NCBI GenBank assembly: GCA_017999985.1
Contig: JAGNKU010000013.1
Span: forward strand, 62,001-126,000
Length of the DNA: 64,000 nucleotides
DNA from: Phycisphaerae bacterium
Lineage (GTDB): Bacteria > Planctomycetota > Phycisphaerae > UBA1845 > Fen-1342
Direction of reading: 5' to 3'
Shown here: piece after piece, positions 1 through 32,017 of the stretch
Numbering within the stretch: the first letter of the stretch is position 1
How the letters are laid out: each line of letters opens with the position of its first letter
Translations under genes and position numbers: made by a program
The notes under the pieces: generated by a model
The model's database searches: none
Told to the model about the DNA's origin: nothing
Seen by the model: the letters and a program-made list of their open reading frames with translations, nothing else

Positions 1-3644
<3,644 letters not shown>

Positions 3645-3740
3645 GGGCTGTCATACCTCTTCTTAAGTACGCGCCTCCCGGCCGCCGGCCGGAAGGATGC
3701 ACGCGGTCCTCGGGGCCCAGCCGCGCCGGTGGGCCGGTGG

Positions 3741-4232
3741 TCAGGCATTCGCGGCGCGGGCTTTCACGCCGCTGGCGACCCATTCCTCGGCGCGCATCGT
3801 CATGCCCACGACGCCGCGCGCCCGTCGAAAACCCAGTTCCTCGCAGAAGTCCACCTCGGTGCCGTAGGCCACCAGGTCGACACGCTGCACGCCTTCGGCG
3901 TACATGGCGTCGAGCACCCGCCGGGCCATCTCGGTGGCAATCCCGTTGGTGTCGTGCTCGATGCGCCCGTCGGTGCGGGTGACGGCCGCCGGGCCCTGGA
4001 GCGTCGGGTCCAGCTTGCACTCCGTCAGATAGCCGCGCAGCCCGTCGCACACACCGCGGGCGATCCCGATCAGACGCCCATTGACGTGGGCCGTCACGAA
4101 CGCGGCGCAGTGCTCGGTCATCTTGCGAATCTGCTCCGGTCGCGCGGCGATGTCGTGCTGCAGCCGCCGGTAGAACTCGGTGAGTTCTTCCGGTGTCACG
4201 TCCTGGCCCGTGCCGTACACGACTTCGAGCAT
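3741..4232 (-). CDS. GNAT-family N-acetyltransferase inserted between rpoB and rpoC
   Basis: The 163-residue product has the layout of a single GNAT acetyltransferase domain: an N-terminal helical part (residues 14-40), a beta strand with A-H-V-N-G-R-L-I-G-I-A, an acetyl-CoA pyrophosphate-loop region around N-G-I-A-T-E-M-A-R-R, and a C-terminal E-E-L-G-F strand typical of the fold. GNAT enzymes move an acetyl group from acetyl-CoA to an amine on a small molecule or protein; the substrate here cannot be read from sequence. The ATG has AGGAG 8 nt upstream. It begins 30 nt after the rpoB stop and ends 96 nt before rpoC, on the same strand, so it should be cotranscribed with both polymerase genes. 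That placement is unusual and might mean co-regulation with transcription or simply an insertion tolerated in the operon. Confidence 0.8.
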   Translation of the reverse strand: MLEVVYGTGQDVTPEELTEFYRRLQHDIAARPEQIRKMTEHCAAFVTAHVNGRLIGIARGVCDGLRGYLTECKLDPTLQGPAAVTRTDGRIEHDTNGIATEMARRVLDAMYAEGVQRVDLVAYGTEVDFCEELGFRRARGVVGMTMRAEEWVASGVKARAANA

Positions 4233-4262
4233 GGTCGCGCTCCTGTATCTCGGCTCGCCGCC

Positions 4263-8087
<3,825 letters not shown>

Positions 8088-8292
8088 TCGAGCAGCCCTC
8101 GCGGTTTGTCGAACGGTCAACGTTCAGACCAAGCCCCCAGGTCGGTGCCGCGCGCGATGTGCGCTGGACAGACCATGCCCCTCCCACAGACGTGGGTCGC
8201 CTGTGGACAGAATCCCCGCCATGGATTCCATCAGCAATGAGCAAAACCTGCCGGTCCGTCGCGCACTACCACCGAAATCTCGCAAGCCACAC

Positions 8293-8946: not shown

Positions 8947-9492
8947 GTGAGTGCCGAGTGGAATATGCCGCGGCGGACCGATGCCTGTGCCGGCTGCGGG
9001 CGCGCGTTCGAATTCGGCGAGACATTTCAGGCGTTCCTGTACGAGCTCGACGGCAGCTACACACGACGAGACTACTGCACCGCCTGCCAGCCGCCCGCCG
9101 TGCCCGCCGCTGTGGGCGCGTGGAAGACACGCCGCCCCGCCCCGGCTCCGCGCGCGGTGCGCCCGTTTGACCGCGAGGCCATCCTCGCGTTTTTCGAGCG
9201 GCTGGAGGACGCGGTCGCGGCCCAGCAGGTGCAGCTCCGTTTCGTGCTGGCGCTGCTGCTGTGGCGCAAGAAAGCCCTGAAGCTGGAGCGCACCGCCCAG
9301 CTCAATGGTCGCGAAACCTGGGAGTTCACGGCGCCGCGGACCGGCACACTGCATCGGGTTGTCCGCCCCGAACTCGACGAGGAAGAGCTGGAACGGCTCA
9401 GCGAACAACTGGAACACCTGCTGGCAGGCGAGCCCGTGGCAGGCGGCAAAGCGCTGTCCGATTGCCTGTGGAAGGAGGAGACCGATGAGTAA
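8947..9492 (+). CDS. Hypothetical protein with two CxxC motifs (zinc-ribbon-like N-terminus)
   Basis: The 181-residue product begins at a GTG with GGGAG about 8 nt upstream; the frame is open further 5' but without a comparable ribosome site. Two CxxC motifs (C-A-G-C near residue 13 and C-T-A-C near residue 44) suggest a small treble-clef or zinc-ribbon fold. They are followed by a proline/alanine linker and a charged helical region with F-F-E-R-L-E-D and an E/L-rich C-terminus. I do not recognise a named family beyond this. The stop overlaps the start of the next gene by 8 nt (ATGAGTAA), so the two are translationally coupled and the protein probably acts with the lipoprotein and RDD protein that follow. 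Confidence 0.75.
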   Translation: MSAEWNMPRRTDACAGCGRAFEFGETFQAFLYELDGSYTRRDYCTACQPPAVPAAVGAWKTRRPAPAPRAVRPFDREAILAFFERLEDAVAAQQVQLRFVLALLLWRKKALKLERTAQLNGRETWEFTAPRTGTLHRVVRPELDEEELERLSEQLEHLLAGEPVAGGKALSDCLWKEETDE

Positions 9493-10333
9493 GGCCCGCG
9501 TGGCGCTCTTGCCGCTGCTCGTCCTCTTCGCCGGCTGCCGCGCGCTGCCCTGCAACCCGCCGCAGAGCCGGATCGAGGCGCTCGATCGCGTCAATAACAA
9601 CTTGTTGAGACTCCAGCAGCCCTTGAGCTGCTCCGCGCTTGTGTCGTTTCGCTTCCGCGACGCCGATGGCAAGGAGCACGCGTTCATCGGGCACGAAGCC
9701 CGGCTGCTGTTCCAGACGCCGCAGTCGGCGGTGTTCGATGTGCGCTCACTGGCGGGGACGGTGGCCCAGTTCGGCTCCAACTCCCGGCGCTACTGGGTAT
9801 GGATCGACGTTCCGGACCTCCGCAAGCTGTGGTGGGGAACATGGGGCTGGGTCGCCGTCGGAACGGAACGCCGTCTGCCGGTGCCACCCAACGAGTTGTT
9901 CGACGCACTGATGTTGCGGCCGCTGCCGGAGAGCCTGGAGGGCGGACAGCCGCCGCTGCTGCGCGTGGACGGCCAGGACGTGCGGTTGCTGTACACCCGC
10001 CTCGGCCCCCGCAAACAGACGCTCGGGTGGCGCGAGATCCGCGTGGATCCCTGCCCGCCGTACCAGCCGCTGGAGGTCATCGACCGCCTGCCGGATGGTC
10101 AGACGCTCATGCATGCGGAGCTGAAGGGTTACCAGGAGGTCGTGAAGGGCGGCCCGTTCACGCCACGGCACTACGTCGTTCGCTGGCCGCAGCACGACGC
10201 CGAGATGCGCCTCGACATCCTGAGCACCAAGTACCGCAGCGAGTTGCCCGAGGACGTATTTGACTTCCCGGACGGGTGGACGGGCGACACCGAATCCGTC
10301 GACGTGACGCCCGCGGGCACAGCGCAACCGTGA
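9485..10333 (+). CDS. Predicted lipoprotein, function unknown
   Basis: The 282-residue product starts with a short basic stretch, a hydrophobic core and a lipobox ending L-F-A-G-C at residue 18, so it should be a lipid-anchored envelope protein. The mature part is mostly beta-strand-like with many W, Y and R residues (for example R-R-Y-W-V-W-I-D and W-W-G-T-W-G-W-V-A-V). It resembles outer-membrane-associated sensor or carrier lipoproteins of the LolA/LolB type in size and texture, but no diagnostic motif was recognised. It overlaps the upstream zinc-ribbon gene by 8 nt and the downstream RDD gene by 4 nt (GTGA), making a three-gene unit. Confidence 0.8.
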   Translation: MSKARVALLPLLVLFAGCRALPCNPPQSRIEALDRVNNNLLRLQQPLSCSALVSFRFRDADGKEHAFIGHEARLLFQTPQSAVFDVRSLAGTVAQFGSNSRRYWVWIDVPDLRKLWWGTWGWVAVGTERRLPVPPNELFDALMLRPLPESLEGGQPPLLRVDGQDVRLLYTRLGPRKQTLGWREIRVDPCPPYQPLEVIDRLPDGQTLMHAELKGYQEVVKGGPFTPRHYVVRWPQHDAEMRLDILSTKYRSELPEDVFDFPDGWTGDTESVDVTPAGTAQP

Positions 10334-11979
10334 CTACCTGGCGGAAGCGGCAGTTCGTCCCGGCTGGCGGCGTGGGGGTGGCGCTGCTCGCCGCGCTGGC
10401 CTTGCCGGCCGGCGCTCAACCCCCATCCGCGACCGCAGAACTCACGCCGTGGGCCGCGCGGCTGGTCGCTGGCCAGCAGACGCTGTGGCTCGTGCGGTCC
10501 GACGACCGGGGCGCGCGGATCTTCCTTCGTGGGCCGAACGAGGCCTTCGCGCCCGGCACCCCGCTGGGCGCGCCCCTCGATCAACTCGTCGTGAGCCATG
10601 ATTTGCTGTATGGCTTCACGCGCGACGGGGCATTTTATTCTCTGCGGCCGGAAGGCTGGACGCGCGAGCTGGATCTGCCGGGCCGGGTGCACCCGGTAGA
10701 GCTAACCGCCGATGACTTCGGGTTGGTCGCCCTGATCCGCTCGCCGCGCGCGGGCGAGCTGCCGCGCCTGGTGGACGGCGCCCGGCCGGCTACGTCGCAA
10801 CCCTTCGACCCTGGCACGGCCCCGTTCAGCGTGGTGCGCTATGACAGCCAGGGCTGGATCGCCATCACGCCGGCGCCGCTCACCCTGGCACCGGAGGGCC
10901 CGGTCCCGCCGCGGCTGGCCGTGCTGCGCGACGCGCTGTGCCTGCTTTGGTGGTCGCCCGACACGCACGATATCGAGCATGTCACCTGGGACCCCGCAAC
11001 ACAGGTGTGGCGTCCCGGGCACCCGACGCCGGCGATCCCTGACCTGGATGCGTTCTGGCTGGTCACCGTCAGCCGCGTGCCCACCCTGATCGTGGCGACG
11101 CGCACGGCGGGCGCGCCACCGGCCCTGAGCGCTTTTCGCCTGTTCGGCGGTCTGCAGGGCCTGCCGGTCGAATGGCGCAGAACGCCGTTGCAGGTCTCCG
11201 AACTTCCGCCCGGCGTGGAGGCGCTGCGGTACAGCTCGGCGTGTGCGTTCAACCAGCACGCCGCGCTGCTGATGCTCGACGCCGCACACGCACCCTTCGT
11301 GCGCTGGGCGCGGCTCGACGGAGCGCCGCTCGAGCACACGGTGGCTGCGGCGGACGTGTTCGGCGCGCCAAGCCGGTCCGCGCGGGCGCCGCAGTGGATC
11401 CAGGGCGCGACGCTGCTGCTGCTGCTCGCGGTAGCGGTAGCGCTGTTCGCATTTCGGCGCAATGCCATCGCCTCCGTCGCGAATCTGCCGGAGGATTGCG
11501 CGGTGGCGCTCACCATCCAGCGCCTGGTGGGCAGCGTTGTCGACCTGGCGCCGTTTCTGTTGATCTTTGCGGCCGTGTTCGGCGTGAACTGGTACCGCGG
11601 CCTCGGCGAGTTGTTCGGCTGGGCGGCGGGGCGGGATGCCGCGCGCGGCCAGTTCCCGGCGCTCGTCACCCTGCTGTGGTGGGCCACAAGCTGCGTCGCG
11701 GCGGTTCTCTACTGCCTGATCATGGAGCTGCTGACCCGCCGCACCGTCGGCAAGGTCCTGACCGGCACGCGGATCGTGTCGGAAACCGGCGAACCCGCGA
11801 CGCCCCAGCAGATTCTGGTGCGGAACGCGCTGCGGCTGGTGGAGTTGTTGCCGCCGCTCTGGGTGTTGGGGTTCCTGGTCGTGCTGTCGCGCAACCGGCA
11901 GCGGCTGGGGGACATCTTCGCCCGTACGCTGGTCGTGCGCCGGGTGCGGCCACGCGACCCTGCCCCCCCCACCGATTAG
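10330..11979 (+). CDS. Exported/membrane protein with C-terminal RDD domain
   Basis: The 549-residue product starts at a GTG overlapping the previous stop. An N-terminal signal-like segment (V-A-L-L-A-A-L-A-L-P-A-G-A) is followed by a long periplasmic part that looks like repeated beta-propeller blades (short strands, W and G rich). A transmembrane segment (L-L-L-L-L-A-V-A-V-A-L) lies near residue 365. The last 160 residues have the RDD-domain pattern: R-L-V-G-S-V-V-D before a membrane helix, a second helix pair, and T-V-G-K-V-L-T-G-T-R-I-V. RDD domains occur in bacterial inner-membrane proteins whose function is largely unknown and sometimes linked to ion transport. It is the last gene of a three-gene cluster. 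Confidence 0.8.
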   Translation: MTTWRKRQFVPAGGVGVALLAALALPAGAQPPSATAELTPWAARLVAGQQTLWLVRSDDRGARIFLRGPNEAFAPGTPLGAPLDQLVVSHDLLYGFTRDGAFYSLRPEGWTRELDLPGRVHPVELTADDFGLVALIRSPRAGELPRLVDGARPATSQPFDPGTAPFSVVRYDSQGWIAITPAPLTLAPEGPVPPRLAVLRDALCLLWWSPDTHDIEHVTWDPATQVWRPGHPTPAIPDLDAFWLVTVSRVPTLIVATRTAGAPPALSAFRLFGGLQGLPVEWRRTPLQVSELPPGVEALRYSSACAFNQHAALLMLDAAHAPFVRWARLDGAPLEHTVAAADVFGAPSRSARAPQWIQGATLLLLLAVAVALFAFRRNAIASVANLPEDCAVALTIQRLVGSVVDLAPFLLIFAAVFGVNWYRGLGELFGWAAGRDAARGQFPALVTLLWWATSCVAAVLYCLIMELLTRRTVGKVLTGTRIVSETGEPATPQQILVRNALRLVELLPPLWVLGFLVVLSRNRQRLGDIFARTLVVRRVRPRDPAPPTD

Positions 11980-13741: not shown

Positions 13742-14536
13742 ATGCGTGCGTCACGCGGCTTTTCGTTAATCGAGCTACTCGTCTGCACGGCGATCATCGC
13801 GGTGCTGCTGGCGATTCTGGCACCGAGCCTGTCAGCGGCCCGCGCCCAGGCCCAGCGCGTCCAGTGCGCCAGCAACCTCCGCCAACTCGCGGTCGCCTGG
13901 CACTGTTACACGGGTGAGTACCGCGGCCGGGCGATGCCGCTGGCCTACACGGACCTGCGGATCATCGGCAGCGGCCCACCCGTGTATTGGTGGGGCACGA
14001 ACGATGTCGCCGGTGTGGACCACACGCGCGGGTTCGTCTGGCCGTATCTGCGATCGGACCTGCGTGTCAACGGCGTTTATGAGTGCCCGCGGCAGCCTTG
14101 GGGAACGTACATTCCGCAGGGGGCCGCGCGGGCGGTGACGAGCACGTACGGCTATAACGGCTACTACCTTTGCCCGCCGCACACGCCCGGCTGGACCATG
14201 CACATCGGCGCTAAACCCTGGAAGAACCTGGACCTGCTGCGGCGACCCCAGGCCCTGTTTCTGTTTGCCGACACGCTGATCGACCTCGGACAGGCCCAGC
14301 CCGAGAACGACGCGCTACTCGACCCCCCGTCGATCTACTTCGCGCGCCGGTGGATCCCCAACAGCGCCCCGACCACCGCGTTCCGGCACCGGGGGCGCAC
14401 GAACGCCGCCGCGGCGGACGGGCACGTCGCGGCACACGGGCCAACCGGAGGGGCAGTGGTGTCGTGGCGGTTCGGGATCGGGTCGGTGGGGGCGGAGAAC
14501 GACCCGCACTATGTCCCGGACTGGCAGTCCTGGTAG
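13742..14536 (+). CDS. Pseudopilin-like exported protein (prepilin N-terminus)
   Basis: The 264-residue product starts M-R-A-S-R-G-F-S-L-I-E-L-L-V, a class-III signal with the glycine-phenylalanine cleavage point and the glutamate at +5, followed by the hydrophobic pilin helix. After the helix comes C-A-S-N-L-R-Q-L, as in the planctomycete pseudopilins of the DUF1559 type, and near the C-terminus F-R-H-R-G-R-T-N with A-A-D-G-H-V, the usual H-x(n)-DG signature. Such proteins are processed by a prepilin peptidase and assembled by type II secretion or type IV pilus machinery. The ATG lies 3 nt after the previous stop, so it shares the B12-riboswitch transcript. There is no dedicated promoter in the gap. 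Confidence 0.85.
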   Translation: MRASRGFSLIELLVCTAIIAVLLAILAPSLSAARAQAQRVQCASNLRQLAVAWHCYTGEYRGRAMPLAYTDLRIIGSGPPVYWWGTNDVAGVDHTRGFVWPYLRSDLRVNGVYECPRQPWGTYIPQGAARAVTSTYGYNGYYLCPPHTPGWTMHIGAKPWKNLDLLRRPQALFLFADTLIDLGQAQPENDALLDPPSIYFARRWIPNSAPTTAFRHRGRTNAAAADGHVAAHGPTGGAVVSWRFGIGSVGAENDPHYVPDWQSW

Positions 14537-14610
14537 TGGGTGACGGAATGTCGTCGAGGTGGCGCGTCGCGTCGCCGATTGTAGGAGTTTGTCCGGTAGT
14601 GCCGCGTGGA

Positions 14611-14639
14611 TTGATTTGGACGCGCGGCGCATCTATCCT
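14611..14639 (+). promoter_or_regulatory. Sigma-70-type promoter for the Trm112-phosphoesterase-methyltransferase operon
   Basis: TTGATT (14611-14616) and TATCCT (14634-14639) are separated by 17 nt; each matches consensus in four of six bases. The predicted transcript start near 14646 leaves a short leader before the GGAGGA ribosome site at 14665-14670. Confidence 0.5.
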
Positions 14640-14682
14640 AATTTGACCGGTACCGTCTGAACCTGGAGGAACGAGCGTAGAG

Positions 14683-14862
14683 ATTGCGCCGATTAGTCCT
14701 GATCTGCTCGCCATTTTGGCTTGCCCGGCGGGCGCGTGTCACGGGGCGCTGGAGCAACGTGCCGATAGGTTGGTATGTCTTCAATGCGGACGGCGCTATC
14801 CGATTCAAGAGCGCTGGCCAGTGTTGATCCCGGAGGAGGCGGAGCCGCCCCAGGAGCCCTGA
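14683..14862 (+). CDS. Trm112-like zinc protein, apparently with a non-standard ATT start
   Basis: The 59-residue product has the Trm112/YcaR pattern: L-L-A-I-L-A-C-P near the N-terminus, then L-V-C-L-Q-C-G-R-R-Y-P-I and a final W-P-V-L-I-P-E-E-A. The usual four zinc cysteines are here as C-P-A-G-A-C and C-L-Q-C, the first pair spaced four apart instead of two. Such proteins bind zinc and in eukaryotes and archaea activate methyltransferases. No ATG, GTG or TTG occurs in this frame after the stop at 14644, so the likely start is ATT 14683, 12 nt after GGAGGA; a GTA at 14677 is the alternative. The stop touches the start of the phosphoesterase gene. The methyltransferase two genes on has its own Trm112-like tail. 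Confidence 0.7.
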   Translation: MAPISPDLLAILACPAGACHGALEQRADRLVCLQCGRRYPIQERWPVLIPEEAEPPQEP

Positions 14863-15711
14863 TTGAAACGCGCGCAGCCCAAGAACAAGAGCTTCGCCAT
14901 CATCAGCGACATCCACGCGAATCTGGAAGCGCTGACGGCGGTTTTGGCCGACATCGACGAGCGCGGCGTGCGCGAGATCGTCTGCCTGGGAGACATCATC
15001 GGTTACGGCGCGAATCCGAAGGAATGCCTCGACCTCGTGCGCGAGCACTGCCGCATCACGATGATGGGCAACCACGACCACGCGGTCCTGTTCGAGCCGA
15101 CCAATTTCAACCTGCCGGCCGAGCGGGCCTGCTATTGGACGCGCCAGGTGCTCGAGGACGAACCGGACCCGGAGCTGCGCTGTGCGCGCTGGAAGTTCCT
15201 CGGCGAGCTGCCGATCCGCGTGAAAGAACGCGACGTACTGTTCGTGCACGCGTCGCCGCGCCGGCCGATGAACGAGTACATCTTCCCCGAGGACGTATTC
15301 ACCAACCCGCAGAAGGTCATCGCAAACTTCGAGCGGCTGGACGCGCGCCTGTGCTTCGTCGGCCACACGCACCAGCCCGGCGTGTTCGTCGACGACCCGT
15401 ATTTCGATCCGCCGGACGAGCTGCCGGATTCGCCGTTCTACGAGGTCGACAACGAGCGGGCGATCGTGAACGTCGGCAGCGTGGGCCAGCCGCGCGACCG
15501 CGACGCCCGGGCGTGCTACGTGATCGTGCGCCGCCGGCCGGAGATGTTCGAGGACGGGGTCGAGAGCCTCGCGGCGGCGGCGCTCAATTCGAGCGTGGAG
15601 CAGGTCGAGTTTGTGCGCGTGGAGTACGACCTGGAGCAGACGGTGCAGAAGATCCTGGCGGAGCCAGCGCTGGAAGACCTGCTCGGCACGCGGCTATACG
15701 ACGGGCGGTAG
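14863..15711 (+). CDS. Calcineurin-like metallophosphoesterase
   Basis: The 282-residue cytoplasmic protein starts at TTG 14863, directly after the preceding stop, with CAGGAG 8 nt upstream. All metal-binding blocks of the superfamily are present: I-S-D-I-H-A-N near residue 15, C-L-G-D-I-I-G-Y-G near residue 43, M-G-N-H-D-H-A near residue 68, F-V-H-A-S-P and V-G-H-T-H-Q-P. These hold a two-metal centre that hydrolyses phosphate mono- or diesters; the closest general type is the YfcE/MPP-DR1281-like group of small phosphoesterases. The substrate is unknown. It sits between the Trm112-like gene and the methyltransferase, 50 nt before the latter, and should be cotranscribed. Confidence 0.88.
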   Translation: MKRAQPKNKSFAIISDIHANLEALTAVLADIDERGVREIVCLGDIIGYGANPKECLDLVREHCRITMMGNHDHAVLFEPTNFNLPAERACYWTRQVLEDEPDPELRCARWKFLGELPIRVKERDVLFVHASPRRPMNEYIFPEDVFTNPQKVIANFERLDARLCFVGHTHQPGVFVDDPYFDPPDELPDSPFYEVDNERAIVNVGSVGQPRDRDARACYVIVRRRPEMFEDGVESLAAAALNSSVEQVEFVRVEYDLEQTVQKILAEPALEDLLGTRLYDGR

Positions 15712-21365: not shown

Positions 21366-24200
21366 TCACTCGCGCGGCAACAGAACGTACGCCAAGCCGC
21401 CCGTCTGGCGCATCCAGACCTTTTCCAGATCGCCACGGAGGTACGCGCGGCAGCCCTCCTCCGGCGTCCGCACGGCCGGGTCATTGACCAGCACGCGCCC
21501 TTCGGCGTCGAACCCGGTGACGACAATCAGGTGGCCCGCGGTGGACTTGTATGGCGCGCCGGTCAACATGCCCACCTCCGGCGCCCGGATCGAGATGATG
21601 AGCGGCTGACCGGCGGCGATCATGCGCTCCACGTCGCTCCACCCGGAGAAGCGCGCCAGGTAGCCCGGCACGTCGAGCGCGTACGCCGCCTGAACGGCGC
21701 GCGGCCAGCCGCCAAAGAGCTTATGCACCGGGTCATAACACAGGCGGGCAACATCCTCCGGCCCGCTCTCCACGCCGCGATAGGACAAGACCATGCTCAC
21801 CGAGGTCGGACTGCAGATCTGCCCCTTGAATTCGGGAACGTTCGTCGCCTGCGTACGGAACGGCACGGGCAGGCGGCGCTGCCAAGCCGACGGCGGCATC
21901 ACGGCCTCTGGCTCCGGGCGTGGCAACGCCGGCGGAATGCCGGTCAGATCACTCAGGCAGAGGTCCACGCGCCGCACACGCAGCGTCGCGCTCTGGCCCT
22001 CTGCACACGCCGTCCGAATGCGATACTGCACGCGGTCAAAGTAGTCCGGCGAACGGAAGTAATCGACGTCGATCTTGCCCTGCTCGCACGTCTCGATGCG
22101 CTCGTCCGCCAGCGTGACCGCGCCCCACTCCCCGACACTGAGGTACGGCGACCAGACGCCCGTGTCCTGCCGGCCCACACGCACCTCGAAACGGAACCCC
22201 GCCTGTTCCGGCGTATCGACGTTCCACGAGGCCACGACCTCGTTGAACCAGAAGTCCGTGTCCAGCACCGGGGACTCGTACGTGCCCGCCTGCGCTCCCG
22301 CGCATGACAAGATCACGCCGCGACCGTCATCCGCCAATGCGCCGTATTGGATCGTCCCCGCCTGGAAGCTCGCGGCGTCGGTGTGAGCGATGGCGTGATG
22401 CGTGTAGGGCAGCGGTGGCTGCGGGCCGCACAGCAGGTCATCGACGGCGGCCGCCATCTCGGCCAGGTATTCCTCGCCGCGCGCATGCTGCGTCATGCCG
22501 GCCAAAAGGTAGAGGTGCTCGCCGTGTTGCACACGGGCCGTGTCGAGATGCCAGTCTTCCCACAGCCCACCCTTGCGCAGGATCGTGACGTCGCGCCCGT
22601 TGAGGCCGCGGACGAAATCCTTGTTGTGGAACTCGAGGCGCGGCGCCGCGAAGATCTCCTTGAGCTTGCCGCACACCTCCGCGCTGACCAGCTTGCCCTG
22701 TTCCAGCATCAGGTAGTAGCGCAGGCACTGCCGCACCGTGGCGCCGTGCGAATGGTCGTGCAGCGGGTCGCCGTAGCGCGGCTCGGCGATGCCGTAGTGC
22801 TTCCCGCACCACAACCCGCCGCCGTGCTCCTTGTCGTAGAACGCGTAGCGCTTCGACCCGATCAGTTCCTGGATCTTCTCCAGCCCGACGAGTTGGCTGT
22901 ACTTCGCCGCCAGCTCGTTGTCGGAGCGCTTGATGACGAGCTGCAATTCGCGCTCGATCGCCGGATCCAGGTTCGCCACGGCCTCCGGGTGCGTCGCGAA
23001 GTACGCCATCACGATGCAGATCTTCGGCACGCTCGCGCCGTAGAACATCGAGTCCGGGCGCACGAGCGCCGCGCGCAGGTTCGTCAGGTCCAGCACGCCG
23101 AAGGCGCGCGCTTCGTCCGGAATGCCCAGCTTCTCGCCGACCTGGCGCTCCAGCGCCTCCAGCGCAGGCTGCAGTTCAGGATCGAGCGGCGTATCGAACT
23201 CGAGGTTGTACGACTGCAAGTGCATGGCATGGGCCCAATCGCGCACATAAGACGGCGGCGCCCCGGTGGTCATCACGGGCGAGGCCGCGAGCGCCGTCTC
23301 GAGCGCGGCCGCGCTCACTTCGGTCGCCCGGGGCGACGCTGCCAGCGCCGCGGCCATCCGCCGCGCGGCGTCCGGCCGCAACCGCAGAATCTTGATGCCC
23401 AGGCATTTGCGATCCTTGGTCAGGTAATCGGTCAACGGCTGCTCGCGCACCGCCGGCGACGCGGAATGCAGGAAATCAACGGTGCCGTCGGGCGCGTGGG
23501 CGATCAGGCCGGTGTGGCCGGCATATTGCGAGTCCGCGTCGCCGCGGATGATGTTCACGAAGTCGCCGTCGCGCAGCTCCCCGAGGATGCCCGGCACGTT
23601 CTCCTTGGGGATGTAGTGGTCGGCGATCGGCTCGTCCGGAATGTCCTGCCCAATCCCGAACTTGGCGAAGAACGCCGCCCGCTTACAAACCTGCTTCAGC
23701 GGCACCGCCGCCGCTCCGCCGCCGAGCGTCGCCGTCAGGTCCTCGAACAGGAACGCGTTGTTGCGATCCCAGTCGGCGATCGTGTAGTGGTTCCGCGTCA
23801 GCATGGAGACGACGCCATCGCGGTAACGCAGCCGCTGCAGCGTGCGCAGGAAGCTCCACCAGTCGCGGCTGAGCGCCATCGAGAACATGTGCTCGCAGAA
23901 GGTCAGGCAGTCGCTGCGGCTCAGGCAATAGATCGGATCGGGATCGATGAACTCGTACGGGAACTCGCCGAGCAGGTAGATGTCATAGGGCTGGCCGATG
24001 TTCTGACGACCGAGGCGAATGACACGCCGCGCCAAGTCCGGCTCCCGCGCATGCACCACGGGCAGATACTGGTCGAGGTCGGTCTCGCTGAACGTGTACA
24101 GCGGCCTGGTTGACCCTTCTGGAGCCGTGCGGCAACCCGCAAGCACACCCGCCATCGCGATCCCCATCAGCAGCTTCAGCGCACAACACCCGGGCTTCAT
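21366..24200 (-). CDS. Lipoprotein fusing DUF1460, class A beta-lactamase-like and C39-like peptidase domains
   Basis: The 944-residue product has a lipobox (V-L-A-G-C, residues 19-23), so it should be anchored in the envelope. Domain 1 (about 35-275) resembles DUF1460, a cysteine amidase-like fold, with S-D-C-L-T-F at residue 98 and A-G-H-T-G-L-I-A at 228. Domain 2 (about 325-590) looks like a serine hydrolase of the class A beta-lactamase fold: S390-V-P-K393, S426-D-N428 and K543-G-G545. A beta-sandwich linker (about 600-750) leads to domain 3 (775-944), a C39/papain-like peptidase with C796, H890 and an N-D pair at 907-908. All catalytic residues appear intact. This points to peptidoglycan or peptide processing. 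GGAGAAGG precedes the ATG. It is divergent from a phosphoesterase gene across a 100-nt gap. Confidence 0.82.
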   Translation of the reverse strand: MKPGCCALKLLMGIAMAGVLAGCRTAPEGSTRPLYTFSETDLDQYLPVVHAREPDLARRVIRLGRQNIGQPYDIYLLGEFPYEFIDPDPIYCLSRSDCLTFCEHMFSMALSRDWWSFLRTLQRLRYRDGVVSMLTRNHYTIADWDRNNAFLFEDLTATLGGGAAAVPLKQVCKRAAFFAKFGIGQDIPDEPIADHYIPKENVPGILGELRDGDFVNIIRGDADSQYAGHTGLIAHAPDGTVDFLHSASPAVREQPLTDYLTKDRKCLGIKILRLRPDAARRMAAALAASPRATEVSAAALETALAASPVMTTGAPPSYVRDWAHAMHLQSYNLEFDTPLDPELQPALEALERQVGEKLGIPDEARAFGVLDLTNLRAALVRPDSMFYGASVPKICIVMAYFATHPEAVANLDPAIERELQLVIKRSDNELAAKYSQLVGLEKIQELIGSKRYAFYDKEHGGGLWCGKHYGIAEPRYGDPLHDHSHGATVRQCLRYYLMLEQGKLVSAEVCGKLKEIFAAPRLEFHNKDFVRGLNGRDVTILRKGGLWEDWHLDTARVQHGEHLYLLAGMTQHARGEEYLAEMAAAVDDLLCGPQPPLPYTHHAIAHTDAASFQAGTIQYGALADDGRGVILSCAGAQAGTYESPVLDTDFWFNEVVASWNVDTPEQAGFRFEVRVGRQDTGVWSPYLSVGEWGAVTLADERIETCEQGKIDVDYFRSPDYFDRVQYRIRTACAEGQSATLRVRRVDLCLSDLTGIPPALPRPEPEAVMPPSAWQRRLPVPFRTQATNVPEFKGQICSPTSVSMVLSYRGVESGPEDVARLCYDPVHKLFGGWPRAVQAAYALDVPGYLARFSGWSDVERMIAAGQPLIISIRAPEVGMLTGAPYKSTAGHLIVVTGFDAEGRVLVNDPAVRTPEEGCRAYLRGDLEKVWMRQTGGLAYVLLPRE

Positions 24201-24300: not shown

Positions 24301-26538
24301 ATGCTGATTCGACGACTGGCGATCGGCGGCGGGGGACTCGCACTGTTGCTGGCGGGCGCTGCCGTGGCACGCGCCACGGACGATCACGCCGCCACGCCCG
24401 GCGAGTTCTCCGTCATGCACATCTCCGACATCCACGTTGAGCCGCACCTCGCCCGCAGCGGCCGGGCCGGGCCGGTGCGCGGTGCGGAGACGATCAAGTG
24501 GATCGTCGCCCAGGCCGCCCTGCCGCAGGAGATCCCGCCGTTCAACCTGACGGCCCCGCCCCCGGCGTTCACCTTCGCCACCGGCGACCTGACCGAGTAC
24601 GGGGTGATCGACGGCACGTGGGACCTGTTCGAGGCAGCGTTCCGCGAGCTGCCGTGCCCCTTGTACGTCGTGCCCGGCAATCACGACAACACGTGGGGTG
24701 CGCTCTACGCCGTCATGCGGCAGCGCCACCAGGGCGAGAACTACTCCTTCGACCACGCTGGCTGCCACTTCATCGGCCTAAGCTCGGCCTCGCCGCAGGA
24801 GCCCGTGCCGTCGATCGACGCCAAGACGCGCGCCTGGCTCAAGGACGACCTCAGCCGTACGCCGGCCGCGACGCCGATCTTCATCGCCCTGCACCACCCG
24901 CTCCACAGCTCCGAATTCGCGAATCCAACGGAGTACGACACCCTGATCGACCTGCTGCGCGATCACAACGTCGTCATGTTGCTCTACGGTCACGGCCACG
25001 GCGTGGAATACCGCGATTTCGGTGGCATCGCAGGCGTCATGGGCGGCTCGACGTTCGGCAAGACCGCCGGCTATGGTCTGCTCAGCGTCCAGCCTGGCAA
25101 AGTGCGGTACGCGTATCGCTATGAGCAGGGTGGCCCAGCCGCCACCGACCAGCAGACGGCCGGCCCCGCCTGGCAGAAGGTGTACGAAGGCCCGCTGCCC
25201 ACCGCCGCTCCGCCGCGCCTCTTCCAGATCGCCAGGCCGGCGCCCGACGCCGCGCTGAATGCGGGCCAGCTCATCGCACAACTGACGGTCCTGGGCGATG
25301 GGACCCTCCCCGCCGGGACCCGCGCCACGTTCCGGATCGACGGCCAGGAACTGGCGACGGTCACCGGCGCCGCCGTGCTGGAGCCGGTTCCGCTCGCGGC
25401 CAACGAGCTGACCGCGGGCGCGCACCTGCTCTCGGTGACCGTGCAGCTCGCCGACCAGCGGAGCGACCTGCGCACCCGCAGCTTCCTCGTCGCGCGCCCG
25501 GACACCGAGCTCGTCTGGCGCAAGCAGTTGCCGGCCGCAATCAAGGCGCAGCCACTGGTCATCGGCGATACACTGGTCATCGCCGGCAACGACGGCCGCG
25601 TGACGGCGCTGGATAAGCGCACCGGCACGGAACAGTGGTCGTTCACGACCGGCGGCGAAATCCTCGGCCGCCCTGCGTGGTCCGGCGCTGCAATCGTGTT
25701 CGGCTCCGGCGACGGCCAAGTGTACGCCGTCAGCGACGCCGGTAAGCTGCAGTGGAAATTCGAGGCCGGTGCGCCGGTCTACGGCTGGCCGCTGATTGCC
25801 GGCGGTTCCGTGTACATCGGCGACAACGGGGGCCGGCTGCACGCGCTGGACGTGTCCGACGGGACGCGGCGCTGGACGTTCGAGCGGGCGGACTTCACGA
25901 TCGAATCCCAGCCAGCCGTGTGGGGCGACCTCATCGTGTGCGGCGCGTGGGACGGTTACCTCTACGCGCTCAACGGCGCGGACGGGAAGCTTCGCTGGAA
26001 AGCGTACGGCCCGGCCGCCAGCGAGAAGAAGTCACGCTACTACGCGCCGGCCGACTGCGGACCCGTCGTGATCAACGAGACCCTGTTTGTCTGCGATCGC
26101 GGCTACGAACTCGGCACGTTTTCGGCCACCGGCGAAATGAAGGCGAAATGGGCGAACAAGGCCAGCGGCATCGCGGCCGGCGCTGACGGCGAAACGCTCT
26201 ACGCGCGCACCAACGACGACCGCGTGCTGAAGCTGAACGCGCGCGGTGAGCCGGTCTGGGAAGCCAAGGTCCCGGCCGGGCGTTTCCCGATCGCCCCCAC
26301 TGTGCATGACGACCGCGTCTATGTCTGCTCGAATCGCGGGCTGCTCAGCGTACTGGACGCGCAGACCGGCAAACCCGTGTGGAACTACCAGGCCACCCCA
26401 GGGCTCTTCGTCATGGCCCCCGTCACGGTGGACGCCGGTGACGCCGCGGGGCCGGTCTGCTATGTGGCGGGCATGGATGGGTCGCTCACGGCGGTGCGGG
26501 CGCGGCCAACGGCCGGCTCAGCGCGCGGGCCCGGTTGA
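24301..26538 (+). CDS. Exported metallophosphoesterase fused to a PQQ-type beta-propeller
   Basis: The 745-residue product starts at ATG 24301 (GGAGTG 7 nt upstream) with a signal peptide ending A-R-A. The phosphoesterase domain (about 35-260) carries H-I-S-D-I-H-V, F-A-T-G-D-L-T, V-P-G-N-H-D-N, A-L-H-H-P-L-H-S and Y-G-H-G-H-G, so the two-metal site seems complete. A short immunoglobulin-like linker (about 300-400) follows. From about 400 come seven or so blades of a PQQ-like propeller, with repeated D-x-x-T-G-x-x-x-W-x-F/Y motifs (D-K-R-T-G-T-E-Q-W-S-F; D-A-Q-T-G-K-P-V-W-N-Y). No function can be named beyond an extracytoplasmic phosphoesterase. Its last 21 nt overlap the convergent regulator gene. 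Confidence 0.85.
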   Translation: MLIRRLAIGGGGLALLLAGAAVARATDDHAATPGEFSVMHISDIHVEPHLARSGRAGPVRGAETIKWIVAQAALPQEIPPFNLTAPPPAFTFATGDLTEYGVIDGTWDLFEAAFRELPCPLYVVPGNHDNTWGALYAVMRQRHQGENYSFDHAGCHFIGLSSASPQEPVPSIDAKTRAWLKDDLSRTPAATPIFIALHHPLHSSEFANPTEYDTLIDLLRDHNVVMLLYGHGHGVEYRDFGGIAGVMGGSTFGKTAGYGLLSVQPGKVRYAYRYEQGGPAATDQQTAGPAWQKVYEGPLPTAAPPRLFQIARPAPDAALNAGQLIAQLTVLGDGTLPAGTRATFRIDGQELATVTGAAVLEPVPLAANELTAGAHLLSVTVQLADQRSDLRTRSFLVARPDTELVWRKQLPAAIKAQPLVIGDTLVIAGNDGRVTALDKRTGTEQWSFTTGGEILGRPAWSGAAIVFGSGDGQVYAVSDAGKLQWKFEAGAPVYGWPLIAGGSVYIGDNGGRLHALDVSDGTRRWTFERADFTIESQPAVWGDLIVCGAWDGYLYALNGADGKLRWKAYGPAASEKKSRYYAPADCGPVVINETLFVCDRGYELGTFSATGEMKAKWANKASGIAAGADGETLYARTNDDRVLKLNARGEPVWEAKVPAGRFPIAPTVHDDRVYVCSNRGLLSVLDAQTGKPVWNYQATPGLFVMAPVTVDAGDAAGPVCYVAGMDGSLTAVRARPTAGSARGPG

Positions 26539-27627
26539 GCTGCGGACAACAAGTTCCGTCGGCAGTTGGCATGACGTCGGCATGCTGTACTTGTCGACGA
26601 TTGCCTGCCGCAAGAGCGCGTAGGCGCGCGCGGCCATTTCGTCGAGTGGCTGCCGGACCGTCGTGAGCGGCGGGTCGAGCAGCGGCGCGGACTGCGGGTC
26701 GTCAAAGCCGACGACGGATACATCCGCGGGGACGGACCGCCCGGCGCGCCGGACCGCCTGCAGCACGGCCAGGGCCAGATAGAAGCCACCGGCGATCACC
26801 GCGGTCGGACCGTCCGGCGCCATCAGGCGTTTTTCGATCTGCGCCATCGTTTCTTCGTCGAGGACAACGCTGTCTTTCGAGACCGGCAGGTCGCACGGCG
26901 TGAGGTGAATGCCACGGGCCATGAGTTCAGCGGTCGCGCCGCGCGCCCGGTCGCGGGCGTTGCTCAGGTTCATCGGCCCGGACAGGACCATGAACCGGCG
27001 ATGCCCAAGCTCCCACAGGTGCCGGGCCGCAACGCGGCCTCCGCTTTCGTTGTCACAATCCACCGTCACCAGGCGCCCCTCCGGGAACGCGCCGCCGAGC
27101 ACGACCACCGGGTAGCGCTCCGCGAGGCGCTCGACCGCGGCCTGCGACTCCAGGGGTGGATGGATGCAGATCGCGCCAACGTCCTTGCGCCCCTTGTCGC
27201 GCAGATCGAACCGATCGTGGAAGAAGAACTCCACGGAACGCGTGTCGGAGCGCGCGGCGCGCCGCAATCCGTTGATCAGCGTGCTGTGGTAGTAGTCGTC
27301 GATGTTGACGTGGTAGTGCTGATCGAACAGCAGGCCGACGAACAACTGGCGCTGCACCTGGTTGGCCGGATCGACATCCTCGCGCACGTACGTGCCGCGC
27401 CCCACCTCCCGCCGCAGCCATCCGGCCTCCACCAGCCCTTCCAGCGCCTTGTGCGCCGTGATCAGGCTCACGTCGACCAGCGTGCTGATCTCCTTCGTCG
27501 ACGGCAGCTTGCAGCCGGGCGTGAGCACGCCGGACCGAATCGCCGCAATCAAAATCTCGCGCGTCTGGAGATACTTCGGCATGGGGTCCCGGCGATCAAC
27601 TTTCGGCAACGAGAGAGGACCGCTCAT
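26518..27627 (-). CDS. GntR-type helix-turn-helix regulator with LacI-like sugar-binding domain
   Basis: The 369-residue regulator (from ATG 27627, GGTGAG upstream) has an N-terminal GntR winged helix (Y-L-Q-T-R-E-I-L-I-A-A-I-R-S-G, then L-P-S-T-K-E-I-S and V-S-L-I-T-A-H-K-A-L). It is joined to a periplasmic-binding-protein type 1 domain as in LacI (V-A-A-R-H-L-W-E-L-G-H, V-V-G-F-D-D-P and T-T-V-R-Q-P). This combination is typical of AraR-like carbohydrate regulators. An earlier ATG (27669) and a later one (27582) are alternatives. Ligand unknown, but the AGE epimerase and GH20 genes upstream on the same strand make an amino-sugar plausible. The 3' end overlaps the convergent propeller gene by 21 nt. 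Confidence 0.88.
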   Translation of the reverse strand: MSGPLSLPKVDRRDPMPKYLQTREILIAAIRSGVLTPGCKLPSTKEISTLVDVSLITAHKALEGLVEAGWLRREVGRGTYVREDVDPANQVQRQLFVGLLFDQHYHVNIDDYYHSTLINGLRRAARSDTRSVEFFFHDRFDLRDKGRKDVGAICIHPPLESQAAVERLAERYPVVVLGGAFPEGRLVTVDCDNESGGRVAARHLWELGHRRFMVLSGPMNLSNARDRARGATAELMARGIHLTPCDLPVSKDSVVLDEETMAQIEKRLMAPDGPTAVIAGGFYLALAVLQAVRRAGRSVPADVSVVGFDDPQSAPLLDPPLTTVRQPLDEMAARAYALLRQAIVDKYSMPTSCQLPTELVVRSSTGPAR

Positions 27628-27899
27628 ATTCCGGCTCACCATTGCACAGCAACCGCAGCCCCATTCCAAGTTTACAGCCTATTTCAGCCGACGCAAGGCG
27701 CGGACGGTCCAACACGCACGACCGGACGCACCGGCACCCTGACTCCACCGCGCACACCCGCGCGCCGGCGTGGCGATACGCCACGACTTCGGAGGCGTCG
27801 CGCTCCGGCCAACGGCGTTATCGGGCATGCGGCACGCCGGCGCACTCCCAGCCGTAACGTGCCGCGCTCCAAACCGGAGTGGCGTCTCAAGCGGCGTGC

Positions 27900-29090
27900 T
27901 CAGGCTTGGCGCGCTTGCGCCAGCATCTCCTCGGCCAGTTTCCAGCAGTAGAGCTGCGTGCGCGGGATATGGAAAGGCCCTTTCCACAGGCCGCCCTTGG
28001 CCGGGTTGGAGACGGTGCCGTCGCGATGCAGGTAGCCGAACCACTCGCCGTGCTGGGCGTCCGGGAAGTGCGCCAGCGTCCACTCGTGGATCTGCTCGTA
28101 CATGTGCGCGTAGCGCGCCGCACCGGTCAGGTGGTATGCAAGCAGTGCCGCGTACAGCGCTTCGCTGTGCGGCCACCAGAGCTTCATGTCATGCTCGAGT
28201 TGCTGTGGCGGCTTGCCGCCCACGTCCACAAAGTACAGCAGTCCGCCGTACTGCCGGTCCCAGCCGCGCTCGAACGACCACTCCAGGATTTTCGTCGCCC
28301 GCCGGGCCAGGGCCGCGTCACCGCGCCGCCGCGCGACCTCCATGATGAACCACGCCGACTCGATCGCGTGCCCCGGGTTCATCGTGCGGCCTTCGAGCGA
28401 ATCCGAGCGCTGGCCGTTCGGCTCCACCACCTCCAGCACGCAGCCGTCCTCGGGTCGGACGAAATCGCGGAAAACCTCCGCGATCGTCTCGTCCAGGATC
28501 GCCTCGTACGGTCCCGGCGCGTCGATCTGCGCCAGCGTGTCCGCCGTGTTCAGAATGCACATCAGCGGCGACAGGGCTTTTAACGGCCGGGTGCGCGGGT
28601 TCGTCTTCGGCTCGATCAGCCCCGGCGTCTGCAGGTAGCGCATGAACGACTGGAACAGGTCGATCGCCCGCTGGCGGATTTCGGCCTCGCCCGTGGCCTG
28701 CGCCAGCGCCGCGAAGCCCAGCGTCGCGAAAATCTCGCTGTACACGTAGCGCCGCATGCGCAACGGCTGCCCGGAGCGCGTTACGAGAAAGTACAGCTTG
28801 CCACGCTCGTCGAAGCAGTGCCGCGTCAGAAAGTCGTAGCCATGCCGGGCGAGGGCCAGCCACTCGGCGCGCGGTTCGACGCGCGTGTAGAGCGTCGCAA
28901 ACATCCACGTCGCCCGCCCCTGTATCCACACCGGCTTGTCCGTGCAGTAGATCGACCCGTCCCGATCCAGGTGCGTGAAGAACCCACCCTGTTCGCGGTC
29001 GACCGCGTGCCGCTCCCAGAACGGGATCACATCTTCAAGCAGCCCGGTACGGTGTGTATCACTCAGTTGCGTAAGTCGCTTGGCGTCCAT
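27900..29090 (-). CDS. N-acylglucosamine 2-epimerase (AGE) family protein
   Basis: The 396-residue product is an alpha/alpha-barrel of the AGE/renin-binding-protein family. Conserved features include R-A-T-W-M-F-A-T-L-Y, F-D-E-R-G-K-L-Y-F near residue 95, R-R-Y-V-Y-S-E-I-F-A-T-L-G, the histidine in M-N-P-G-H-A-I-E-S-A-W, W-W-P-H-S-E-A-L and G-E-W-F-G-Y-L-H-R-D-G. These histidines are the acid/base residues of the family. Members interconvert N-acetylglucosamine and N-acetylmannosamine, or epimerise mannose or cellobiose. The substrate is not settled by sequence, but a neighbouring GH20 hexosaminidase favours an amino sugar. It lies 67 nt downstream of the GH20 gene on the same strand. Confidence 0.9.
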   Translation of the reverse strand: MDAKRLTQLSDTHRTGLLEDVIPFWERHAVDREQGGFFTHLDRDGSIYCTDKPVWIQGRATWMFATLYTRVEPRAEWLALARHGYDFLTRHCFDERGKLYFLVTRSGQPLRMRRYVYSEIFATLGFAALAQATGEAEIRQRAIDLFQSFMRYLQTPGLIEPKTNPRTRPLKALSPLMCILNTADTLAQIDAPGPYEAILDETIAEVFRDFVRPEDGCVLEVVEPNGQRSDSLEGRTMNPGHAIESAWFIMEVARRRGDAALARRATKILEWSFERGWDRQYGGLLYFVDVGGKPPQQLEHDMKLWWPHSEALYAALLAYHLTGAARYAHMYEQIHEWTLAHFPDAQHGEWFGYLHRDGTVSNPAKGGLWKGPFHIPRTQLYCWKLAEEMLAQARQA

Positions 29091-29157: not shown

Positions 29158-31968
29158 TCAGTCCAGTCCGCTCACGCCGACCACGATCAGCGCGCCGGCC
29201 GCGTCGGCCGAGCGCAGCGTGAGCCTGCGGATCACCCGTTCCGGCCGCGGATGCGACCACACCAGCGCCCGCAAGGCCACCGCCTCGCCGGACGCCGTCG
29301 TGCCCGACCAGACCACCGGCGCCTCCGCGAGCGCCATGCCGTCGCCGTAGGCCAGCACGTTGCGGCCGTAGACCACCGGCAGATCCGCTTCCGTACCGTC
29401 GTCGTACGTCACGCAATACTCGCCCACCGGCGTGCCGTCCGCGCAGGCAAAGTTGGTCGCATGCAGGATGACCAACTGCGCGGCTTGGCGCTCCAGGGTC
29501 AGTTCCACCGTGGACGGAAACCCCGCGCCGTGCGTCAGCTTGCTGCGCAGCACGATGGCCGACCGGTCGGCCGGCGCTCCAATCTGAAACGCCACCCCCT
29601 TCAGGCGCGTCCGCCCACTCGGCACATCCCGCAGGTCGTGCTCCGGCCCAAGCTCGAACCAGCCGCGCTCGTCCGCGGCCGCCAGAGCGTAGTTGCATGC
29701 CGCCCCGATGTCCGCCACCCACCCGCTCCGGTTCGCCGGCGGCAGCGCGCTCAGGCCCATCAGGTCCAGGAAGTATGCGCGGGCGGGATAGGTGTCCGGG
29801 TCCGGCGGCTGGTCGGCGTTCCAGGCCGCTTCGGCGGCGAGCACGTAGGCCGCATACTGGGGCAGGTGCCGGGCGAAGCTCTCCGGATCGAGCGAGTAAC
29901 CGGCCCAGGTCGTTTGCAGCAGCCCGCGCGCCTTCTTCGCGTATGCCGCCCGCGCGAAGTTCACGATGTTCGCCGGCCGGTCCCAGGTGGCCGCCACCGT
30001 CTCGAAACCCGCCGCGTGAAAGACGTCCAGATTCGTGAAGTCCTCCGGCGGATTTCCACAGTAGTGCCAATCCGCAATGCGGATGTCGTCCGGGAGTTCC
30101 GCGCGCAGCGCGGCGGCCGACTCCCTGGACTTGGCGTGGCAGGCATCGGGCCCTTCGCCCTTGGCCAGCAGCATGTCGCCCCACATCATCGTGCGGACCC
30201 CGCGCTCCGCCAGCCACGCGTGTAGCCGCTGCGTGTCGGTCAGGAAAAGCTGCTCGACCGTGAAGGCCTGGCTCGACTCGCGATACGGCACGCGGCCACG
30301 GTGGTCAAACTCGTCGTGACCGATGTGGAACCACTTCGGCTGAAAAAGCTCCAGCGCCTCCGCGTAGATTCTGAAGATGAACTCGTAGGTCGCCGGATTA
30401 GTCACACAGTAGGCCCATTTCGCGTCCGGGTCCTCGGCCAGTTCGAGATGATGCCCCGTTTCGAACATCCACTGACAGTGGCCGAGCGACATGACCAGCG
30501 GGATCACCTCGATGCCGGTCTCGGCGCACGCGCGGAGAATCTGTCGCACGTCGTCTTTCGGCATGCCGTACTGCGGGTGGTGAATCTCGGGGTAGGCGTC
30601 CCACTCAACGTACTCGGCCTGCAGGACAAGGGCGTTCATCTTCAGCGCCGCAAGCACGTTGCGAACCAGCTTGAGATGCAGCTCGGGGCCCTGCCCGCCC
30701 GTGAACATGTGCACGCCGCGAAAACGCAGCGCCGGCCAGTCCCGGATCTCCGCGCTGCGCACCACGACTTCGCCACCGGGCGTGCACGACGTGAGCTGAA
30801 TCAGAGTCTCGACCGCGTAGCGAAAGCCGGCGGTGCTGTCGGCCTCGACGGTGATGCCGGCCGGCGACACGGTGAGCTGGTACCCTTCCGACGACCAATT
30901 CGGAAGTACCGCGGGCTGAAACCGGATGGCCGCGACCGGTATCCGTTCCTGCTCAGCGTCCAGGGCGGCGGTGACGCCGTGCCGCTCCGCGAGGTACCGC
31001 GCCCAGCGGGCGGCGGCCGGTCGCGCGGCCGGAACACCAACTTCAATTGGCGGCCGGCCCGTCAGCACAAACCCGCCGGGACCGAATTCCGCGCGCTTGG
31101 GACGCGGAATGACCACCGGCGGATCGTCGGCGACGTACGTCTGGACATCCGGCCGTGCTTCGATTGCCGCGACCGCGGAGATGACTTCGGCCGGCGCCGA
31201 AGTCGGCGCATCCGGCGGCAGGTGATAGACGATCCGGTAGCGCGTGGTCTGGCCGGCCTTCAGCCGCGTCCCCAGGTCGCCAAACCAGAAGTAAGGGTTG
31301 TCCGCGGTCGCCCAGCGGTCCTTGCGGTAGTCATAGACGATCAGCTCGGGCTTCCCGTCCACCTCGATCCGTATCGGCCCCAGGCGCGAGTCAAACTCCA
31401 GCGTCCGGAAGCCGCGCGCCAGTGTGTTGACGGCGCGCTCCGCAGAACGGGCCGCAACCGGTACAACACCATGAACAGTCTCGCCCCCCGCCAGTTCCGC
31501 CATGTACGGTCGCCCGACAATCAGCGTCGGATTCAGTCCGCCGATCCGCCACTGCAGCAGCGCTTCGGCGTCCTGTTTGACGAAGCGGGCGTCCAGCACC
31601 TGCTCGATCCGGCCATCCGCGTGCAACGTGATCGTCTCCACGCCCTCGAACGATCCGTCAGCGCCGCGGTGCACCAGGCGCAGGCGCGCGCCGCCGTCAA
31701 CGGACTCGTGCACTGCGTCCGCGACCGAGCGCTCGTCCGGTCCGACGTAGTAGTGCGGTGCCCAACCCGGCGTCGTGATCACCAGCTCGCTGTGCCGGAT
31801 GACCTCGATCCCGTCGTACAACACGCGCAGGCCGGGATGGCGCGGCTCCAACAAAACTCGCGCGCGACCCTGGCTCAGCTCCTGACGCGGCGTGCCGGCC
31901 CACGCGGCCGTGCACGCCAATGCCGGTAATATCCACCCTGGCACGCTCCGCATGGTTCTGCCCTGCAT
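29158..31968 (-). CDS. Exported GH20-type beta-N-acetylhexosaminidase
   Basis: The 936-residue product from ATG 31968 (GAGGTG 6 nt upstream) has a signal peptide near residues 6-26; another ATG at 31953 is possible. After about 280 residues of beta structure comes a GH20b-like domain (V-V-I-P-R-P-K-R-A-E-F). The GH20 barrel follows, beginning R-F-R-G-V-H-M-F and containing W-F-H-I-G-H-D-E-F-D, where the adjacent aspartate and glutamate are the catalytic pair. The histidine in place of the common glycine before them is a minor variation. GH20 enzymes remove terminal GlcNAc or GalNAc from glycans, with the 2-acetamido group assisting. The released sugar could feed the AGE epimerase encoded downstream. 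Confidence 0.87.
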   Translation of the reverse strand: MQGRTMRSVPGWILPALACTAAWAGTPRQELSQGRARVLLEPRHPGLRVLYDGIEVIRHSELVITTPGWAPHYYVGPDERSVADAVHESVDGGARLRLVHRGADGSFEGVETITLHADGRIEQVLDARFVKQDAEALLQWRIGGLNPTLIVGRPYMAELAGGETVHGVVPVAARSAERAVNTLARGFRTLEFDSRLGPIRIEVDGKPELIVYDYRKDRWATADNPYFWFGDLGTRLKAGQTTRYRIVYHLPPDAPTSAPAEVISAVAAIEARPDVQTYVADDPPVVIPRPKRAEFGPGGFVLTGRPPIEVGVPAARPAAARWARYLAERHGVTAALDAEQERIPVAAIRFQPAVLPNWSSEGYQLTVSPAGITVEADSTAGFRYAVETLIQLTSCTPGGEVVVRSAEIRDWPALRFRGVHMFTGGQGPELHLKLVRNVLAALKMNALVLQAEYVEWDAYPEIHHPQYGMPKDDVRQILRACAETGIEVIPLVMSLGHCQWMFETGHHLELAEDPDAKWAYCVTNPATYEFIFRIYAEALELFQPKWFHIGHDEFDHRGRVPYRESSQAFTVEQLFLTDTQRLHAWLAERGVRTMMWGDMLLAKGEGPDACHAKSRESAAALRAELPDDIRIADWHYCGNPPEDFTNLDVFHAAGFETVAATWDRPANIVNFARAAYAKKARGLLQTTWAGYSLDPESFARHLPQYAAYVLAAEAAWNADQPPDPDTYPARAYFLDLMGLSALPPANRSGWVADIGAACNYALAAADERGWFELGPEHDLRDVPSGRTRLKGVAFQIGAPADRSAIVLRSKLTHGAGFPSTVELTLERQAAQLVILHATNFACADGTPVGEYCVTYDDGTEADLPVVYGRNVLAYGDGMALAEAPVVWSGTTASGEAVALRALVWSHPRPERVIRRLTLRSADAAGALIVVGVSGLD

Positions 31969-32017
31969 GCGTGCACCTCGCTGATCGTCGAACCATCCCC
32001 GCAACACGGAATTCACG

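Follow-up and report, generated by a model that had tools for sequence, protein, structure and literature searches.

The family DUF1460 is reportedly assigned to the N-acetylmuramoyl-L-alanine amidases on the authority of Xu et al. in 2014, as cited in PMC10318531. The same activity is given in the Pfam description of DUF1460, and Cys-His-His catalytic residues have been reported for the member structure 4Q5K (PMC10318531). The serine enzyme PBP-A of Thermosynechococcus elongatus, a low-molecular-weight penicillin-binding protein (PBP), is a DD-carboxypeptidase/endopeptidase that acts on muropeptides, and PBP-A is described as confined to cyanobacteria (PMC11189452). Both kinds of activity have been ascribed to one polypeptide in Chlamydia pneumoniae, where AmiA is an amidase with DD-carboxypeptidase activity attributed to an SxxK motif in the amidase itself, according to the passage of PMC13104611 that cites this work. 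The turnover of peptidoglycan and feeding on it have been little studied in planctomycetes, and no paper on peptidoglycan recycling in this phylum was found in the literature searched. The planctomycete lipoprotein described here joins known families in a new domain architecture.

The gene occupies positions 21366-24200 on the minus strand of the window, that is, of the whole 64,000-nucleotide stretch of Phycisphaerae DNA that was analysed, and encodes a 944-residue protein with three hydrolase domains in the order A, B, C. Its ATG start codon at 24200 is preceded by the Shine-Dalgarno sequence GGAGAAGG, and its N-terminus is a lipoprotein signal peptide, MKPGCCALKLLMGIAMAGVLAGC (residues 1-23, 24132-24200, minus strand), with a VLAGC lipobox at C23; most relatives have a lipobox as well. 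The reading frame and the catalytic residues are kept at approximately 50-70% identity in nine other genomes, and this conservation, together with the codon signal and the recognizable domains, excludes a chance open frame on a GC-rich strand. A contig or assembly artefact was likewise ruled out by the identical domain order in ten genomes from separate assemblies. The open frame, which has both a ribosome-binding site and a lipobox, is confirmed as a genuine gene. The AlphaFold2 model of the whole protein, based on an alignment of 25 sequences, reached a pLDDT of 84 and predicts four structural modules with three active sites; a partly helical linker (residues 281-325, 23226-23360, minus strand) connects domains A and B in the model. 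The initial annotation had described three different hydrolase-type active sites in one anchored protein, and the Pfam matches, the model, the lipobox, and the invariant residues bear this out.

Domain A (residues 31-280, 23361-24110, minus strand) is a DUF1460/AmiA-like cysteine amidase domain. It matched PF07313 over residues 64-264 (E 1.3e-24, 87.2 bits compared to a cut-off of 27), and its sequence relatives in the PDB are 2p1g, 2im9, and 4h4j/4q5k. The predicted triad C98/H229/H245, placed from sequence motifs rather than by superposition, is invariant in all 18 copies of domain A among the distinct relatives fetched.

The C-terminal part of the protein was modelled as two domains, a beta-sandwich followed by a C39 domain. 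The beta-sandwich (residues ~600-770, 21891-22403, minus strand) is defined by its strands in the model and accompanies the C39 domain, with which it was aligned jointly in stand-alone relatives; the fold search gave no match for it among the matches listed, a list filled by class A enzymes. The C39 family comprises cysteine peptidases. The C39_2 domain (residues 777-944, 21369-21872, minus strand) matched PF13529 over residues 777-909 (E 1.2e-17, 65.3 bits compared to a cut-off of 24), and its triad C796/H890/D907 is invariant in 47 of 47 intact copies. Stand-alone beta-sandwich/C39_2 modules are widespread in the phylum. The same module was also observed in one open frame with a sulfatase (L049:601-3897) and in another with an S9 prolyl-oligopeptidase (L016:1-2421).

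Domain B (residues 326-597, 22410-23225, minus strand) has the class A beta-lactamase/PBP-A fold, with the motifs S390-V-P-K393, S426-D-N428, and K543-G-G. PF13354 (Beta-lactamase2) was matched weakly by the 944-residue protein itself (residues 369-412, 15.9 bits, below the cut-off of 22), by all 19 of the 19 relatives having domain B (best E 2.2e-10), and with up to 47 bits by stand-alone B relatives such as L072. Modelled alone, the domain reached a pLDDT of 89.7, and a fold search with residues 331-594 ranked PBP-A (2j7v) first (Z 25.7, 232 aligned residues, rmsd 2.8). Class A beta-lactamases trailed PBP-A by less than one Z unit, as for LRA-5 (Z 25.5, 227 residues, rmsd 2.6). With PBP-A and the class A enzymes as nearest folds, domain B is a serine-hydrolase fold, and residues S390, K393, S426, N428, and K543 are invariant in all 25 intact copies.

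A variable middle residue in the SxN motif is a trait of PBPs. In the copies of domain B, S426 and N428 flank an aspartate in 18, a serine in 6, and a glutamate in 1. Across the same copies no conserved glutamate was found in the stretch corresponding to Glu166, between the SDN motif and the next helix, where D456 and D478 are near-invariant and D482 is partly conserved. Direct alignment of domain B with TEM-1 gave no usable match, so the omega-loop argument is based on conservation within the family. Given the variable middle residue and the lack of a conserved Glu166-like residue, domain B appears, as judged from its sequence, likelier to be a PBP-A-like DD-peptidase than a beta-lactamase. 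The earlier description of a class A-type serine domain thus stands, and the beta-lactamase label gives way to that of a predicted PBP-A-type enzyme. Domain B would represent a further branch of the beta-lactamase fold outside cyanobacteria, probably with a role other than resistance.

The distribution of the family was surveyed at three levels. A pattern scan of approximately 85,000 species genomes, restricted to close-relative patterns, returned 14 loci, all in planctomycete records. A match to some part of the protein was present in 23 of 41 relatives, and also in 40 of 392 genomes drawn from the phylum, mostly as module C alone, with only two candidates scored per genome in the latter survey. 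Domain B itself was present in 15 of the 41 relatives. The distinct architectures containing it were A-B-C (10), A-B (5), B-C (5), and B alone (5); A and C are likewise found singly, and the order of modules is invariably A, B, C. The full fusion that had been seen in the window was thus recovered in ten genomes, all Planctomycetota, as one member of a wider modular set.

Two substitutions of modules were found within this set. In L011, counted as A-B, the C39 part is replaced by a C-terminal M15 D-Ala-D-Ala dipeptidase domain of the VanX type (4.4e-41) with the motifs SRHNRGCAVD...EWWH (SxHxxGxAxD + EWWH). In L033:4954-7878, counted as B-C, Pfam identified an N-terminal phosphodiester glycosidase (NAGPA) in place of domain A, and L031:2-2290, which is 82% identical to L033, was assigned the same swap by sequence similarity. 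A tree of domain B requires six label changes and fits both an ancestral A-B-C architecture and its repeated origin. The set of architectures and the M15 and glycosidase swaps establish the family as modular, with domain B as its hub. The combination of domains had been noted as unfamiliar; NCBIfam holds no model for the A-B-C protein, and neither the three-enzyme fusion nor the interchangeable set of modules bears a name in NCBIfam or in the literature searched.

In the window, the A-B-C gene is flanked by a divergent gene (24301-26538, plus strand; start inferred at the ATG before the signal peptide) for a secreted protein with a calcineurin-like phosphoesterase domain and a PQQ/BamB-like beta-propeller. 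This gene is likewise divergent from and adjacent to the A-B-C gene in L021, L022, L024, and L032, and it is present in L027. Past it, just upstream of the A-B-C gene and on the same strand, are genes for a GntR/LacI-type regulator (26518-27669, minus strand; 64-71% identical in L021/L024/L027), a GlcNAc 2-epimerase family protein (27900-29090, minus strand; PF07221, 2e-62), and a GH20 beta-N-acetylhexosaminidase-like protein (29158-32016, minus strand; PF02838 and PF00728). The L027 operon is headed by the 64%-identical regulator; then come a gene whose NagB and PIG-L matches are weak, as read from its homologue in L021, and, directly after it, an A-B gene.

Other genomes connect the family with genes for muropeptide breakdown. 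In L022 and L032 the gene after A-B-C encodes a transglutaminase core with a PF00144 serine hydrolase, and in L032 (8717-12010, plus strand) an M15 D-Ala-D-Ala dipeptidase is joined to both in the same frame. The genome of the window itself has a homologue of the L032 fusion that lacks the M15 domain (L068:8724-11327, minus strand) and is divergent from a gene for the exo-N-acetylmuramidase NamZ; this pairing of the transglutaminase/PF00144 gene with NamZ recurs in relatives, and the NamZ locus of the own genome is on another contig than the A-B-C gene. In G012 an A-B gene belongs to a run that also holds two PF00144 genes, with NamZ and a NagB-like gene approximately 8-12 kb away. The window, L022, L027, L032, and L096 thus all associate the family with amino-sugar and muropeptide genes.

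Several further frames were recorded. An acetyl xylan esterase (AXE1) family gene is directly downstream of the A-B-C gene in L021 (8947-9915) and adjoins it in L023, L024, and L026; its product might deacetylate wall sugars. Two frames of L096 gave no Pfam match, one beside the A-B gene run (9044-11023, minus strand, 660 residues) and one between the NagB-like gene and NamZ (14418-15596, plus strand, 393 residues). Open frames of 885 and 831 residues join a PF00144-type serine hydrolase to NamZ in G033:C24:20016-21803 and G040:C66:6008-7816, respectively. A NamZ fusion in the own genome, suggested by a 742-residue open frame, was rejected, as the signal peptide places the real start approximately 320 codons downstream. 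At positions 1-8240 of the window, two minus-strand frames (~1216 and ~1286 residues) are opposite a 2733-residue plus-strand frame, and codon usage favours the minus strand.

NamZ was present in 13 of 15 genomes with domain B compared to 3 of 26 without it (Fisher p 2.7e-6, a statistic that ignores the relatedness of the genomes), and the contrast was similar among genomes at least 90% complete (12/13 versus 1/14). The transglutaminase/serine hydrolase gene was found in 9/15 versus 3/26 (p 0.003). A GH9 cellulase used as a control also co-occurred with domain B (9 of 15 versus 3 of 26), and therefore lineage or a polymer-degrading lifestyle accounts for part of the NamZ signal; the NamZ association is numerically stronger than that of the control.

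The neighbouring genes and the co-occurrence with NamZ point to catabolism of peptidoglycan fragments; taken with what the families are known to do, this context suggests that muropeptides are dismantled step by step at the envelope. We consider it probable that the A-B-C protein is an envelope-anchored lipoprotein that takes apart peptidoglycan fragments outside the cytoplasm for the salvage of sugars and peptides. Domain A would probably cut the MurNAc-L-Ala bond, and the probable role of domain B is that of a PBP-A-like D-Ala-D-Ala carboxypeptidase/endopeptidase working via an acyl-serine at S390. The C39 cysteine peptidase would probably cut another bond in the released stem peptide; its exchange for M15 in L011 suggests that it too acts on this peptide. 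Fusion of the three enzymes would bring consecutive reactions on the same substrate together at a single site. We infer these bond specificities; the domains may cooperate, and the substrate could come from either the cell's own turnover or other bacteria. More tentatively, and with rather less than even confidence, the whole family could be viewed as a planctomycete set of lipid-anchored, muropeptide-dismantling fusions, in which a PBP-A-like DD-peptidase hub is combined with an amidase, a C39 peptidase, an M15 dipeptidase, or a phosphodiester glycosidase, such that one cell-surface polypeptide cuts several bonds of one wall fragment.

The organism has PBPs and a D-Ala-D-Ala ligase and hence makes its own peptidoglycan, which makes it conceivable that the protein serves the remodelling or maturation of this wall, by stem-peptide trimming or septum splitting, rather than salvage. 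An amidase and a DD-carboxypeptidase in one protein are indeed known from a division enzyme, the C. pneumoniae AmiA, as cited in PMC13104611. However, the patchy occurrence of domain B, in 15 of 41 relatives, is unlike that of a core wall enzyme, and the neighbours are catabolic and amino-sugar genes with no divisome genes among them, so that we regard a role in the cell's own wall as unlikely. Still less probable is a general extracellular digester of peptides that feeds the cell, in which the amidase and serine domains would have substrates other than the wall. The C39 modules that occur alone or in S9 peptidase and sulfatase frames would suit such a digester, but MurNAc-L-Ala or D-Ala bonds are the known targets of the families to which domain A, domain B, and the M15 replacement belong, and the NamZ association exceeds that of the cellulase control. 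Between the two substrates first proposed for the protein, the stem peptide of peptidoglycan is favoured over peptides imported for food. A drug-resistance beta-lactamase would suit the class A fold and its motifs S-x-x-K, S-D-N, and K-[ST/G]-G but is very improbable, given the lack of a conserved omega-loop glutamate, a D, S, or E in the middle of SxN as in PBPs, and the catabolic gene context. Equally improbable is a binding-only role for at least one catalytically idle domain, for which the degenerate domain B of L037, lacking the S-x-x-K part, could be cited, as the catalytic residues are invariant in every intact copy despite wide sequence divergence.

Under the preferred reading of muropeptide salvage, the interchangeable modules hint at the substrate of the C39 module, and a single protein with three unrelated intact sites makes the amidase, carboxypeptidase, and endopeptidase steps directly testable in one enzyme.

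Compared with the described systems, each module combines familiar and distinct features. Domain A resembles the solved DUF1460/AmiA-like proteins (PF07313; 4q5k, 2p1g, 2im9) in family score, alignment, and Cys-His-His residues; unlike those members, whose chains of 240-333 residues match neither domain B nor domain C, it forms the N-terminal third of a fusion protein. Domain B has its best structural match, by a narrow margin, in PBP-A of T. elongatus, and both are serine enzymes of the class A fold, although a PDB sequence search with the domain B profile detected neither PBP-A nor any other entry up to E 0.1, and the conserved loop GGGLWxGKHYG is peculiar to domain B. With the class A beta-lactamases (PF13354; LRA-5 and CTX-M structures) domain B has in common the fold (Z ~25) and the three active-site motifs, whereas it differs in the absence of a conserved deacylating glutamate, in the change of SDN to SSN or SEN in relatives, and in its sub-cut-off Pfam score. 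Module C is like the C39_2 peptidases (PF13529; PDB 3erv) in domain score and conserved Cys/His/Asp residues, but it carries a beta-sandwich of its own and is lipid-anchored within the fusion. The bacteriocin-processing C39 peptidases have an ABC transporter partner, and a bacteriocin exporter was ruled out here by the lack of a fused one. Bifunctional wall enzymes such as the chlamydial AmiA are known. As far as AmiA is portrayed in PMC13104611, both polypeptides, found within the wider PVC group, unite amidase and penicillin-type carboxypeptidase functions, as predicted ones in the A-B-C protein, which distributes them over separate cysteine and serine domains and adds a third enzyme.
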